The notes beneath the pieces were generated by a model. The model saw only the letters and a program-made list of their open reading frames with translations, was not told the origin of the DNA and searched no databases. A stretch of 64,000 bases of DNA from Nitrososphaerota archaeon (GTDB lineage: Archaea; Thermoproteota; Nitrososphaeria; Nitrososphaerales; Nitrosopumilaceae): assembly GCA_016872055.1 (NCBI GenBank), contig VHBH01000003.1, positions 1 to 64,000 on the forward strand, written 5' to 3'. The position numbers and the translations under genes are program-made. Below are positions 24,405 to 28,812 of this stretch, piece after piece (the stretch's first letter is position 1; each line of letters starts with the position of its first letter).

Positions 24405-27400
24405 TTAGATAGGGTCGTAGGGCTCTAGCGCCTTTTTGGTAGTTTCGTTGTGTGTCATCCACTCAAGTGTCTTGACAAAAGATTCTGCGAGCTCTGTTGT
24501 GGTCAATACAGGTATGCCAAGCTCTATTGCCTTTCTTCGGATTTGATATTCGTCATTTAGCATCCCTACGTACTTTTCTAGAGTAGAAGTGGATGGAATA
24601 TTGATGATAAAGTTGATTTTTCTCTCATATAACAAGTCCGAGATGTTTGGTTTGCGCTCCGGCTCGGATATTTTGTGCACTATTTGGACATCGCCGATTT
24701 GCTTTTCCTCAAGGAATTCCGCCGTATGCTCTGTTGCCAGCAACTTGAACCCAAGATGCTTGAGTGTGGCCATAGTTTGGAGTAGCTTTTCCTTGTTTTC
24801 AGAGCCACCGATTGTAATTAGTGCAGTTCCAGTCTTTGTCAGATTGTACCCAACCGAAATCAAGCCCTTTGATAGTGCGTCATAGAAACTATCCCCAAAG
24901 CACGCTGCCTCGCCGGTGGATTGCATTTCAACGCCAAGCACAATGTCTGCTCCATCCAACTGCATAAACGAAAACTGTGGCATCTTGATTCCATGGATTG
25001 GTGTTTTCTTCCATTTGTCTGGCTGAAGCTTTGGCAGCTCTTTTCCCAGTACTGCCTGAGCTGCCAAGATGATAAGATTTGTTTTGATCAGTTTTGAGAC
25101 AAATGGCATGGAACGAGACGCCCTGATGTTTAGCTCTATTACATAGACTTGTTCGTTGTTTATCAAAAACTGCAGATTAAACGGTCCTCGGATGTTAAAC
25201 GATTTTGCGATTCGTGTCGCATAGTCCGTTATGGTCTCGACTTGCTTGTTTGACAATCTCCATGGAGGTATTACCATCATTGCATCACCAGAGTGTACAC
25301 CAGCTGCGTCAATGTGTTCCACTAATGCGCCGATGAATACGTTCTTTCCATCGGAGACTCCATCAACATCGACTTCAAGTGAGTTTAGCATGAATTTTGT
25401 AATTACGACTGGATGGTCTGGCGATAGTGTTGTTGCCTCGCCAACATATCTTGATAGCTCTTCCTGTGACCAGACAACCTTCATTGCGGCACCAGAAAGC
25501 ACGTATGATGGCCTAACCAAGACGGGATAGCCAACCTTCGTGGCAAAGGATTTCGCCTCTGCAAAGTTGGAAAATGCCTGCCACGGAGGCTGCTTTATGT
25601 GTAATTTATCCAATACTGCGCTGAACTTGGAGCGGTCTTCGGCGCTATCCACATCTTCTGCAGATGTGCCAAACATTTTGATTCCTGCCTTGGCAAGCTT
25701 TGGAGTCAGATTATTTGCGGTTTGTCCGCCCACGGATGTTACAACACCTTTGGGATTTTCCATGTCCACAATATCCAAAATTCTCTCCAGTGTTAGCTCT
25801 TCAAAATACAGCCTAGAGCAAATATCATAATCAGTAGATACTGTTTCTGGGTTGCAATTGACCACTACAACATTTGACTCGCCGTTTTGCTGCAAGCCCC
25901 AGACCATGTTGACTGTTCCCCAGTCAAATTCCACTGAAGAGCCGATTCGATATGGGCCTGCACCAAGCACGATTATACCCTTTTGATCAGGTGTTACCGT
26001 GATGTCGTTGTCGTATCCTCCATAAGTCATGTAGAGATAGTTAGTCTTTGCAGGCCACTCTGCGGCAAGCGTGTCAATTTGCTTTACAACAGGCAAGACA
26101 CCCATGTCTTTGCGGATCTTTCGTACCTCCATGTCTTCCATGTTTAACGCCCGCGCAATCTGTCTATCAGAGAATCCAAGGTGTTTTGCTTTTCTCATCA
26201 GTTCCTTATCCATTGGTTTTTTCTTGAGGTTTAGTTCCACATCCACGATGTTTTTGATTTTCTCAATGAACCACGGATCAATAAAAGAGAGTTTCTGGAT
26301 TTTCTCAACAGAAATTCCTTTTCGCAGTGCAGCCGCCACATAATACAAAACCCGGTCATCTCCGTTTAGTAGCTGATTCTCTATGTCTTCTATTTCATTG
26401 TCATCGACGTTGTTCCTATTTAGCACAAGACCGTCGTTGCCAATATCCAGCATCCTAATTGATTTTTGCAGTGATTCCTCAAAGGTTCGTCCAACTGCCA
26501 TAACCTCTCCTACGGACTTCATTGTGGGGCCAAGCTTTCTGTTTGCACGCTCAAATTTGGTAAAATCCCACCTAGGATGCTTGATTACGGCATAGTCTAG
26601 GGACGGCTCAAAGCACGCAGTAGTGGTTTTTGTGATTCGATTTACTAGCTCAGGTAGGGTGTGGCCTAGGCCTATTTTGGCAGACATGTATGCAAGTGGA
26701 TATCCTGTTGCCTTGCTAGCCAAAGCCGATGATCGTGACAGCCTTGGGTTGATTTCAATTGCAACGTATCTGTCGGATTTTACATCCAGTGCAAATTGGA
26801 TGTTGCACTCTCCAATTATTCCGACATGTTTTGTTCCACGCAATGCTGCAGAGCGTAACATGTGGTATTCTCTATTATCTATTGTTTGAGAGGGGGCAAC
26901 TACAATGTTGTCTCCAGTGTGAACCCTCATGGACAAGACATTTTCCATGTTGCATACAATGACATTGTTTCCCTCATAGTCCTGCATTACCTCGTATTCG
27001 ATTTGCTTCCAATGACCAATGTATTCCTCAATTAGAACTTGGTGGACAAGGCTCGCATTTAGGCCGCGCTCTACAATCTCGTGCAGCTCAATTTCGTTGT
27101 GAGCTACTCCTCCACCACGACCGCCCAATGTATACGCAACTCGAATTATCACTGGGTATCCCAGTTCTTCTGCCGCTTTTTTTGCATCCTCAAATGTGTT
27201 AACCGTTTTTGATCTGAGTACCGGAACACCACATTCATTCATCGAGTCCTTGAATAATTGTCGGTCTTCGGTTCTCTGAATTCCCGGTATTTGTGTTCCC
27301 AAAACTTTGACTCCGTATTTTTCTAAAACGTTTGCCTCAGCTAGTTTAACACCACAGTTAAGGGCAGTCTGTCCCCCATATCCAAGCATAATTCCGTCTG

Positions 27401-27650
27401 GCCGCTCTGATTCTATTATCGATGAGACATACTCTGGCGTAACTGGAAGAAGGTACACCTTATCTGCAAACCTAGTGTCTGTCTGAATCGTCGCGATATT
27501 AGGATTAATCAGTACGGATTTCAGACCGTCTTCGTGTATGGCCTTGAGGCATTGGCTACCGGAGTAGTCGAATTAGCGGTCGTTTTAGCGACTTTCGCCT
27601 GCTTCTCCGATTTTGATTGCCCCACTACCAAGAACTAGGATTTTTTTCAG
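24405..27650 (-). CDS. carB: Carbamoyl-phosphate synthase large subunit, 5' end disrupted
   Basis: Makes carbamoyl phosphate from glutamine-derived ammonia, bicarbonate and ATP with CarA. Uninterrupted frame from the ATG at 27458 (1017 residues, ATP-grasp motifs such as AYTLGGRGGGVAH and YVLSGAAM, oligomerisation and MGS-like C-terminal domains). Homology extends upstream: ILVLGSGAIKIGEAGE and FDYSGSQCLKAIHEDG, the conserved PreATP-grasp start, which in the same frame is split by a 21-nt insertion with two TAA stops (27573-27593). No in-frame ATG/GTG/TTG precedes KNESLKKIL; a CTG at 27648-27650 is the only near-start, and an ATG at 27656-27658 is out of frame. Whether the protein is made is uncertain. 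Confidence 0.82.
27573..27593 (-). other. 21-nt insertion in carB carrying two in-frame TAA stops
   Basis: Between the codons for GEAGE and FDYSG, which are adjacent in the CarB family, lie 21 extra bases reading S-R-stop-N-D-R-stop. Removing exactly 21 nt (27573-27593, or shifted by one or two bases) restores the conserved junction. The RNA around it can form GCG-AAA(bulge)-GUCG/CGAC-CGC (27598-27576), and the insertion itself holds a 12-nt imperfect tandem repeat (cgctaaaacgac/cgctaattcgac). Intron, bypass element, mutation or assembly error cannot be told apart from sequence alone. Confidence 0.75.
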
Positions 27651-27666
27651 TGACTCATTTTTGAAT

Positions 27667-28812
27667 TTACTTCCCTCCTTTAATCAAAGAATCAAGCTCT
27701 TCGAAAACAAATTTGCAGTCGTATGGGCCAGGCGATGCCTCTGGGTGAAATTGCACTGCAATTATTTTTTTGAGCTTGTGTCGAATGCCTTCGACTGTGT
27801 TATCGTCAGTATTTGTAAACCATAAATCAAATTCGGTTTTTCCAAGTGAATCAGGGTCTATACAGTAACCGTGATTCTGGGATGTGACGTAGACCTGCTT
27901 GTTTTGTAAATTAAGGCAGGATTTGTTTTGTCCCCGATGTCCGTACTTTAGCTTGTACGTGGATGCACCGCCAGCAAGTCCTATTATTTGTGCGCCAAGA
28001 CAAATGCCAAGTGTTGGGATATTATTTTGGATTAGATTCTTGGCAGTTTCTATTGTCTCAGGGCATGCCTCAGGATCTCCAGGCCCGTTACTTAGCACGA
28101 CGCCCTTTGGGGAATATTTCATGATATCTGAATAGCTAGTGTTCCACGGTACTTTGATGACTTTGTATCCAAGATCCCGAACATTGCGCAGTATGGCATT
28201 TTTGACACCAGTATCCACCACCACGACACAGTCAGACTCTTGCCCAAATGACTGGACTTGTTTTGTGGAAACTACATTCATGAATTTTTCCTCAGAGTAT
28301 GGTTTTGCAGTTGCCAGCTCTTTTTTGATCTGCTCCACATTTATTTCAGAATCAGACACCACTAGTGCCGCCATTGTGACTCCGCTGATTCGTAGTCTTT
28401 TTGTAAGCTCGCGCGTGTCAATATCAGAAATTCCAGGAATTCCCTCTTTGTGCATCCACTCATCTAGTGTCATCGATAGATTCCAGTGGCTTGCAATCTC
28501 GGATAATTCATGGACCACTAATCCCCGAGCCTGAATACACCCGGATTCAAAGAATTTTGATATCCCAGACTCGTCGGCTTGTGATGGGTCAGGCACTCCA
28601 TAATTACCCACAAGCGGATAGGTCAAAGTCAGTATTTGTCCCGAATAAGACGGGTCAGTCAGGGTTTCGACATATCCCACCATTCCGGTGTTAAAAACAA
28701 GTTCACCAAAAACATTCTTCGAGGCGCCAAAGCCCCTGCCAGAAAGAATAGTACCATCAGATAAGATCAGTTTTGCATATTTGTTTGCAAACTGGGATTT
28801 TTTTATTGAAAT
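27667..28812 (-). CDS. carA: Carbamoyl-phosphate synthase small subunit, non-canonical start
   Basis: Glutaminase partner of CarB; class I glutamine amidotransferase. Visible motifs: VVLSNGPGDPEACPE, GICLGAQIIG (catalytic Cys) and AVQFHPEASPG. The earliest in-frame ATG (28681-28683) would drop about 43 conserved residues (ANKYAKLILSDGT, GRGFGASKNVFGELVFNTG). In that upstream segment there is no ATG, GTG or TTG before the stop. The start given is an ATT at 28810-28812, placed 6 nt after GGAGG (28819-28823) and about 35 nt after a TATA-like CTTAAAT (28844-28850). Ends 17 nt before the carB homology begins. Confidence 0.85.
   Translation of the reverse strand: MSIKKSQFANKYAKLILSDGTILSGRGFGASKNVFGELVFNTGMVGYVETLTDPSYSGQILTLTYPLVGNYGVPDPSQADESGISKFFESGCIQARGLVVHELSEIASHWNLSMTLDEWMHKEGIPGISDIDTRELTKRLRISGVTMAALVVSDSEINVEQIKKELATAKPYSEEKFMNVVSTKQVQSFGQESDCVVVVDTGVKNAILRNVRDLGYKVIKVPWNTSYSDIMKYSPKGVVLSNGPGDPEACPETIETAKNLIQNNIPTLGICLGAQIIGLAGGASTYKLKYGHRGQNKSCLNLQNKQVYVTSQNHGYCIDPDSLGKTEFDLWFTNTDDNTVEGIRHKLKKIIAVQFHPEASPGPYDCKFVFEELDSLIKGGK

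Follow-up and report, generated by a model that had tools for sequence, protein, structure and literature searches.

The carB gene, which encodes the large subunit of carbamoyl-phosphate synthase, is interrupted by a 21-nt element in a 64,000-nt stretch of a Nitrosopumilaceae archaeon (contig VHBH01000003.1 of assembly GCA_016872055.1, positions 1 to 64,000; hereafter the window). We regard this element as very probably an archaeal pre-mRNA intron of the bulge-helix-bulge (BHB) type, removed by the splicing endonuclease EndA together with RtcB. This reading is favored because the element is conserved, its stem covaries, its lengths are non-modular, the flanking exons appear constrained by their pairing, losses have been precise, and EndA and RtcB are both encoded in the genome. 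A preliminary description, made from the window sequence, had listed a minimal mRNA intron at a BHB or relaxed motif beside ribosomal bypassing, recent duplication, and error; the comparative evidence speaks for the first of these.

A 21-nt insert in the carB reading frame

The window belongs to an archaeal genome of 1.24 Mb that is 98.8% complete. On its minus strand, carB reads GGC GAA, then AGTCGCTAAAACGACCGCTAA (27593-27573), then TTC GAC TAC. The residues ahead of the insert are ...KKILVLGSGAIKIGEAGE, and translation across it gives ...IKIGEAGE / SR*NDR* / FDYSGSQC..., in frame and with both stops TAA. The sequence itself therefore bears out the original observation of 21 nt with two in-frame TAA codons between the motifs GEAGE and FDYSG, and the downstream frame, also described as open, runs for 1,055 amino acids in exon 2. 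In a spliced product, the GSGAIKIGEAGE region of CarB, on the exon 1 side, would be joined to FDYSG. As first noted, the placement of the junction is uncertain by two bases (AA) and one cut option falls at an AAA bulge; a cut after the second bulge nucleotide yields 27573-27593, the coordinates proposed at the outset. The gene is thus divided as follows:

27594..27683, minus strand: carB exon 1 open frame, ...LKKILVLGSGAIKIGEAGE; begins after an in-frame TGA at 27684-27686, start codon uncertain
27573..27593, minus strand: putative 21-nt intron, AGTCGCTAAAACGACCGCTAA, with the cut placed behind nucleotide 2 of each bulge; contains two in-frame TAA codons; assigned from direct sequence, class-wide position, and covariation
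24405..27572, minus strand: carB exon 2, from FDYSG to the stop, carbamoyl-phosphate synthase large subunit; 1,055 codons open; assigned from TIGR01369 and the ratio of nonsynonymous to synonymous substitution rates (dN/dS)

How constant is the insert among relatives? In a set of 94 distinct insert-bearing sequences it measures 20-32 nt, with every modulo 3 class represented. An in-frame stop is present in 45/45 inserts of length 3n, and exact removal leaves GGC GAR / TTY in frame in all 94 sequences.

RNA structure and exon codons

The predicted fold of the window sequence is the hairpin GCG-AAA-GUCG-loop-CGAC-CGC that had been sketched initially. Folds of six diverse sequences, together with an unaided RNAalifold prediction on 41, gave the same shape or near variants. 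The architecture consists of an outer exon-exon helix, a 4-bp central helix between exon-1 GGCG and the 3′ end of the intron, a 3-nt bulge of sequence ARA, and a hairpin formed by the intron. In the window, its predicted parts are:

27602..27610, minus strand: exon-1 strand of the outer exon helix, UCGGAG plus AG, pairing with 27559-27567 (CU plus CUCCGG); assigned from folds and carrier-only codon constraint
27559..27567, minus strand: exon-2 strand of the outer exon helix; assigned from folds and codon constraint
27596..27599, minus strand: exon-1 strand of the central helix, GGCG, with its partner at 27575-27578 (CGCU)
27575..27578, minus strand: central helix partner at the intron 3′ end, CGCU; assigned from folds
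27593..27595, minus strand: 5′ splice-site bulge, AAA; ARA in all relatives
27589..27592, minus strand: 5′ strand of the intron helix, GUCG, pairing over 4 bp with CGAC at 27579-27582
27572..27574, minus strand: 3′ splice site, AAU (ARU), inside an asymmetric internal loop

Both splice-site motifs, ARA at the 5′ bulge and ARU at the 3′ site, occur in 94/94 sequences. Three of the four central pairs are standard in 94/94 and the fourth, outermost one in 80/94; in one genome (G040), the central helix is preserved through a compensatory GGUG:CACC. The intron helix is 100% paired, with two-sided (compensatory) changes at three of its four pairs, and it reaches a covariation score of 0.258, compared with 0.164 on shuffling (0/500) and at most 0.115 in slid registers. 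At the 3′ splice site there is no strict 3-nt bulge; ARU sits instead in a larger asymmetric loop ahead of the outer helix, so the modeled motif is classed as a relaxed BHB only (HBh′-like), with one bulge intact and the other side relaxed. Rfam returned no match for the element, and at 20-32 nt it is too short for the ribozyme core of a group I or group II intron. A covariance model found no second copy in the element's own genome, the model being dominated by carB exon sequence and blind to unrelated introns.

Do the exons show the mark of this pairing? Using a pattern degenerate at every codon, we compared 38 carriers with 61 intron-less sequences, as raw counts uncorrected for ancestry. 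GGA is used by 35/38 carriers vs. 14/61 intron-less sequences, GGC by 37/38 vs. 7/61, GAC by 38/38 vs. 26/61, TAC by 38/38 vs. 23/61, and TCC by 33/38 vs. 9/61. The constrained codons are those with third bases paired in the fold model, and carriers vary at the Phe codon, which is unpaired. On this sequence comparison, the exon codons appear to be constrained by the intron.

Distribution, loss, and splicing machinery

How widespread is the insert? Our sampling comprised a DNA search of 60 relatives, 400 Nitrososphaeria genomes, and 398 genomes across the phylum. In the carB genes recovered by the DNA search, throughout the genus and family, the insert occupies the same nucleotide position, the family versions being 20-22 nt long; this rules out chance, error, and recent mutation as its source. 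A degenerate pattern tolerating the presence or absence of the insert matched in 324/400 Nitrososphaeria genomes, in both forms, and the covariance model recognized intron-bearing carB in 204/400, at the same nucleotide position. The insert is carried by the majority of the window's family, by a great many members of family f8, and by parts of f10 and f12; other carriers are scattered as single members of f3, f5, and f11 and as one genome from another order (f20). Among the matches listed, Nitrosotalea devanaterra, N. bavarica, Nitrosopumilus salaria BD31, Nitrosopumilus sp. b1, CSP1-1, MnTg01, and Nitrosocosmicus/Nitrososphaera metagenome-assembled genomes are carriers. The 398 phylum genomes contained no insert outside the class.

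Several candidate matches were set aside. Two outside the class (G477 and G530) are a 29-nt intron-less carB stretch, haloarchaeal pattern matches are ordinary coding sequence (GESDPRAFDYSG, probably of a PrkA-type kinase), and short extra exon 1 matches are contig ends or chance.

The insert is identical in the window and in three relatives (L004, L005, and L008), and synonymous sites of exon 2 differ by 43-68%. Precise losses occur inside carrier clades (e.g., G282, G396, and G015). In one sequence nested among carriers (L188), the intron is absent to the nucleotide; exon-2 codons beside the junction have new synonymous changes there, and exon 1 retains the carrier sequence. The CarB tree requires 10 state changes, 8 of them forced by supported branches, which would fit an intron of old origin that was lost precisely and repeatedly. 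Some lateral transfer is also likely, with G083 placed among f10.

Some individual genomes merit separate mention. The only carrier found in another order (L033, from G083) has a CarB that branches within f10, which suggests lateral transfer or a binning error. A single assembly (G190) holds two intron-bearing carB copies, L222 and L223, on different contigs and different tree branches, and is probably a mixed bin. Two contigs (G008:C123 and G006:C156, loci L278 and L279) break off inside exon 1 of carB, shortly before the intron, the former within the outer helix; such breaks perhaps reflect strain variation at assembly.

Does the genome encode the means to remove the element? It contains RtcB and two EndA genes (PF01974). 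The product of one of these (L183) is most similar to the catalytic chain of the Aeropyrum pernix enzyme (3p1z_B) and retains the DHAP motif with a following Lys; the other (L184) lacks the catalytic His. By sequence, the enzyme is probably of the (alpha-beta)2 type, with catalytic and non-catalytic subunits, and enzymes of that type accept relaxed motifs (PMC6379350). Transfer RNA introns in the same genome measure 15, 16, 18, 28, and 49 nt, so an intron of 21 nt is within the genome's normal range. The intron-containing tRNA genes recorded are L244, L249, L266, L270, and L273-L277, many with introns of merely 15-18 nt.

In the proposed mechanism, exon-1 GGCG of the carB transcript would pair with the intron 3′ end and the GUCG/CGAC hairpin would stack above it, with the ARA bulge between, while pairing of exon-1 UCGGAG..AG with exon-2 CU..CUCCGG would draw the splice sites together. 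EndA would then make one cut behind the second nucleotide of the 5′ bulge and another at the corresponding position of the 3′ loop; ligation of the exons by RtcB would give GGC GAA / TTC and full-length CarB, with the predicted tryptic junction peptide IGEAGEFDYSGSQCLK. An unspliced message would meet a stop or a frameshift about 20 codons in.

Competing explanations, known systems, and start codons

Several points weigh against splicing as proposed. In 14/94 sequences the outermost pair of the central helix is replaced by a G-A mismatch, the asymmetric 3′ loop requires an enzyme that tolerates relaxed motifs, the type of that enzyme is read from sequence, and the exon codon constraint could partly stem from shared ancestry of the carrier alleles.

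Could the element instead stay in the mRNA and be hopped over by the ribosome, from GAA to the codon before TTC? The hairpin at the gap and the exact in-frame junction would suit such bypassing, and the known bypass elements (T4 gene 60 and the byps of Magnusiomyces) are likewise short, structured, non-coded gaps in an open reading frame (ORF). Those elements, however, re-pair with a matching landing codon, whereas the carB element lacks matching take-off and landing codons, the last intron triplet equaling the take-off codon in 0/94 sequences. Bypassing also leaves the exon-exon pairing and the BHB with its 3-nt bulge unexplained, and precise losses better suit removal at the RNA level; we therefore consider it very unlikely.

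Slimmer again is the chance that the gene is disrupted, or that translation of carB begins solely at an internal codon past the element. ORF callers do give a 1,017-aa ORF from an internal GTG, but this version matches TIGR01369 only from profile position 63 and loses the first 62 positions, although exon 1 encodes the conserved CarB N-terminus. Comparison within the genus puts exon 2 dN/dS at about 0.03, so the gene is evidently functional, and structured conservation extends over about 200 genomes. A search of the genome found no second carB, its next best match being a 501-aa protein with 26% identity; with the low dN/dS, this excludes the pseudogene with a second intact carB that had been envisaged at first.

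We give marginally less credence still to a conserved RNA regulatory element retained in the message and passed by readthrough or frameshifting. Structured RNA close to the gene start would be in keeping with it, but the inserts of 20-32 nt fall in all three modulo 3 classes with differing stops, and therefore no single, constant recoding event could serve them all. Assembly error and recent duplication, to which a local 12-nt imperfect repeat had pointed, are refuted by the element's presence at the same position in those 204 genomes, which come from many separate assemblies, some of them single contigs; the repeat can indeed be seen, but as a coincidence peculiar to this lineage, absent in relatives with GTCA/TGAC or GCTG/CAGC stems.

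How would a carB intron compare with known systems? The closest case, and one of the same kind, is the cbf5 pre-mRNA intron of Desulfurococcales and Sulfolobales, which is 16-44 nt long and spliced and which at least two lineages have probably lost (Yokobori et al. 2009, PMC2738675; Watanabe et al. 2002). Its splicing was demonstrated experimentally, with the cut reported after the second bulge nucleotide, a position like that proposed here. The carB element differs in its gene, its class (Nitrososphaeria), its many more carrier species, and its exon-exon outer helix with visible codon constraint, and it is known from sequence only. The cbf5 genes of Cenarchaeum and Nitrosopumilus maritimus are without the intron. 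In Haloferax volcanii, HVO_1309 has a BHB element in the 5′ untranslated region of its mRNA that is an EndA substrate (PMC7714728); the carB element lies instead within coding sequence, the taxon is another one, and the enzyme type, so far as is known, also differs. Archaeal tRNA introns are alike in motif class and size range but differ in context and position and carry no coding requirement.

A 2020 paper described cbf5 as the sole archaeal mRNA for which a BHB intron had been reported before (PMC7714728). We found no earlier report of a carB intron, or of such an intron in Nitrososphaeria, in the open literature, subscription papers being mostly outside the search. The carB element would thus be a second reading-frame BHB intron, located in a gene of central metabolism and present in about 200 of the 400 sampled genomes of the class of the ammonia-oxidizing archaea, and archaeal mRNA splicing would be wider than thought, extending beyond hyperthermophilic crenarchaea. 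CarB would be misannotated wherever an ORF caller was used, its N-terminus lost or the gene split or labeled a pseudogene. The intron would also offer a natural series of loss and covariation in which exon coding competes with RNA structure.

Is the intron a passive insert? In the window carB, no in-frame ATG, GTG, or TTG follows the last upstream stop before the conserved N-terminus is reached (27594-27683, minus strand), and putative starts in its genus are ATA/ATC/ATT-like. Intron-bearing carB of Nitrosopumilaceae begins with weak near-cognate codons, mostly CTG, which stands at a constant position behind a strong GGAGG (upstream regions of L004-L032 and L186-L225); intron-less relatives mostly use ATG or TTG. 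The link between start codon and intron has P = 3e-6 by simple count, while on the tree the 8 supported pairs, too few independent events for a firm link, give a median P of 0.25. A tentative and, in our judgment, rather unlikely interpretation is that the intron acts as a working control gate, the weak start giving time for splicing before the first ribosome. That ribosome would reach the element about 60-80 nt past the start, and splicing would have to beat it. If so, the supply of CarB, and with it the making of pyrimidines and arginine, would be tied to the EndA/RtcB activity that also serves tRNA splicing.

The neighboring gene directly upstream is:

27667..28683, minus strand: carA, the small subunit; its open frame reaches upstream to ATT at 28810-28812

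The conserved N-terminus of carA runs upstream of the ORF-caller ATG (28683) through 28684-28812 on the minus strand, a region without ATG, GTG, or TTG, and the ATT at 28810-28812, which follows GGAGGG, is a candidate near-cognate start.
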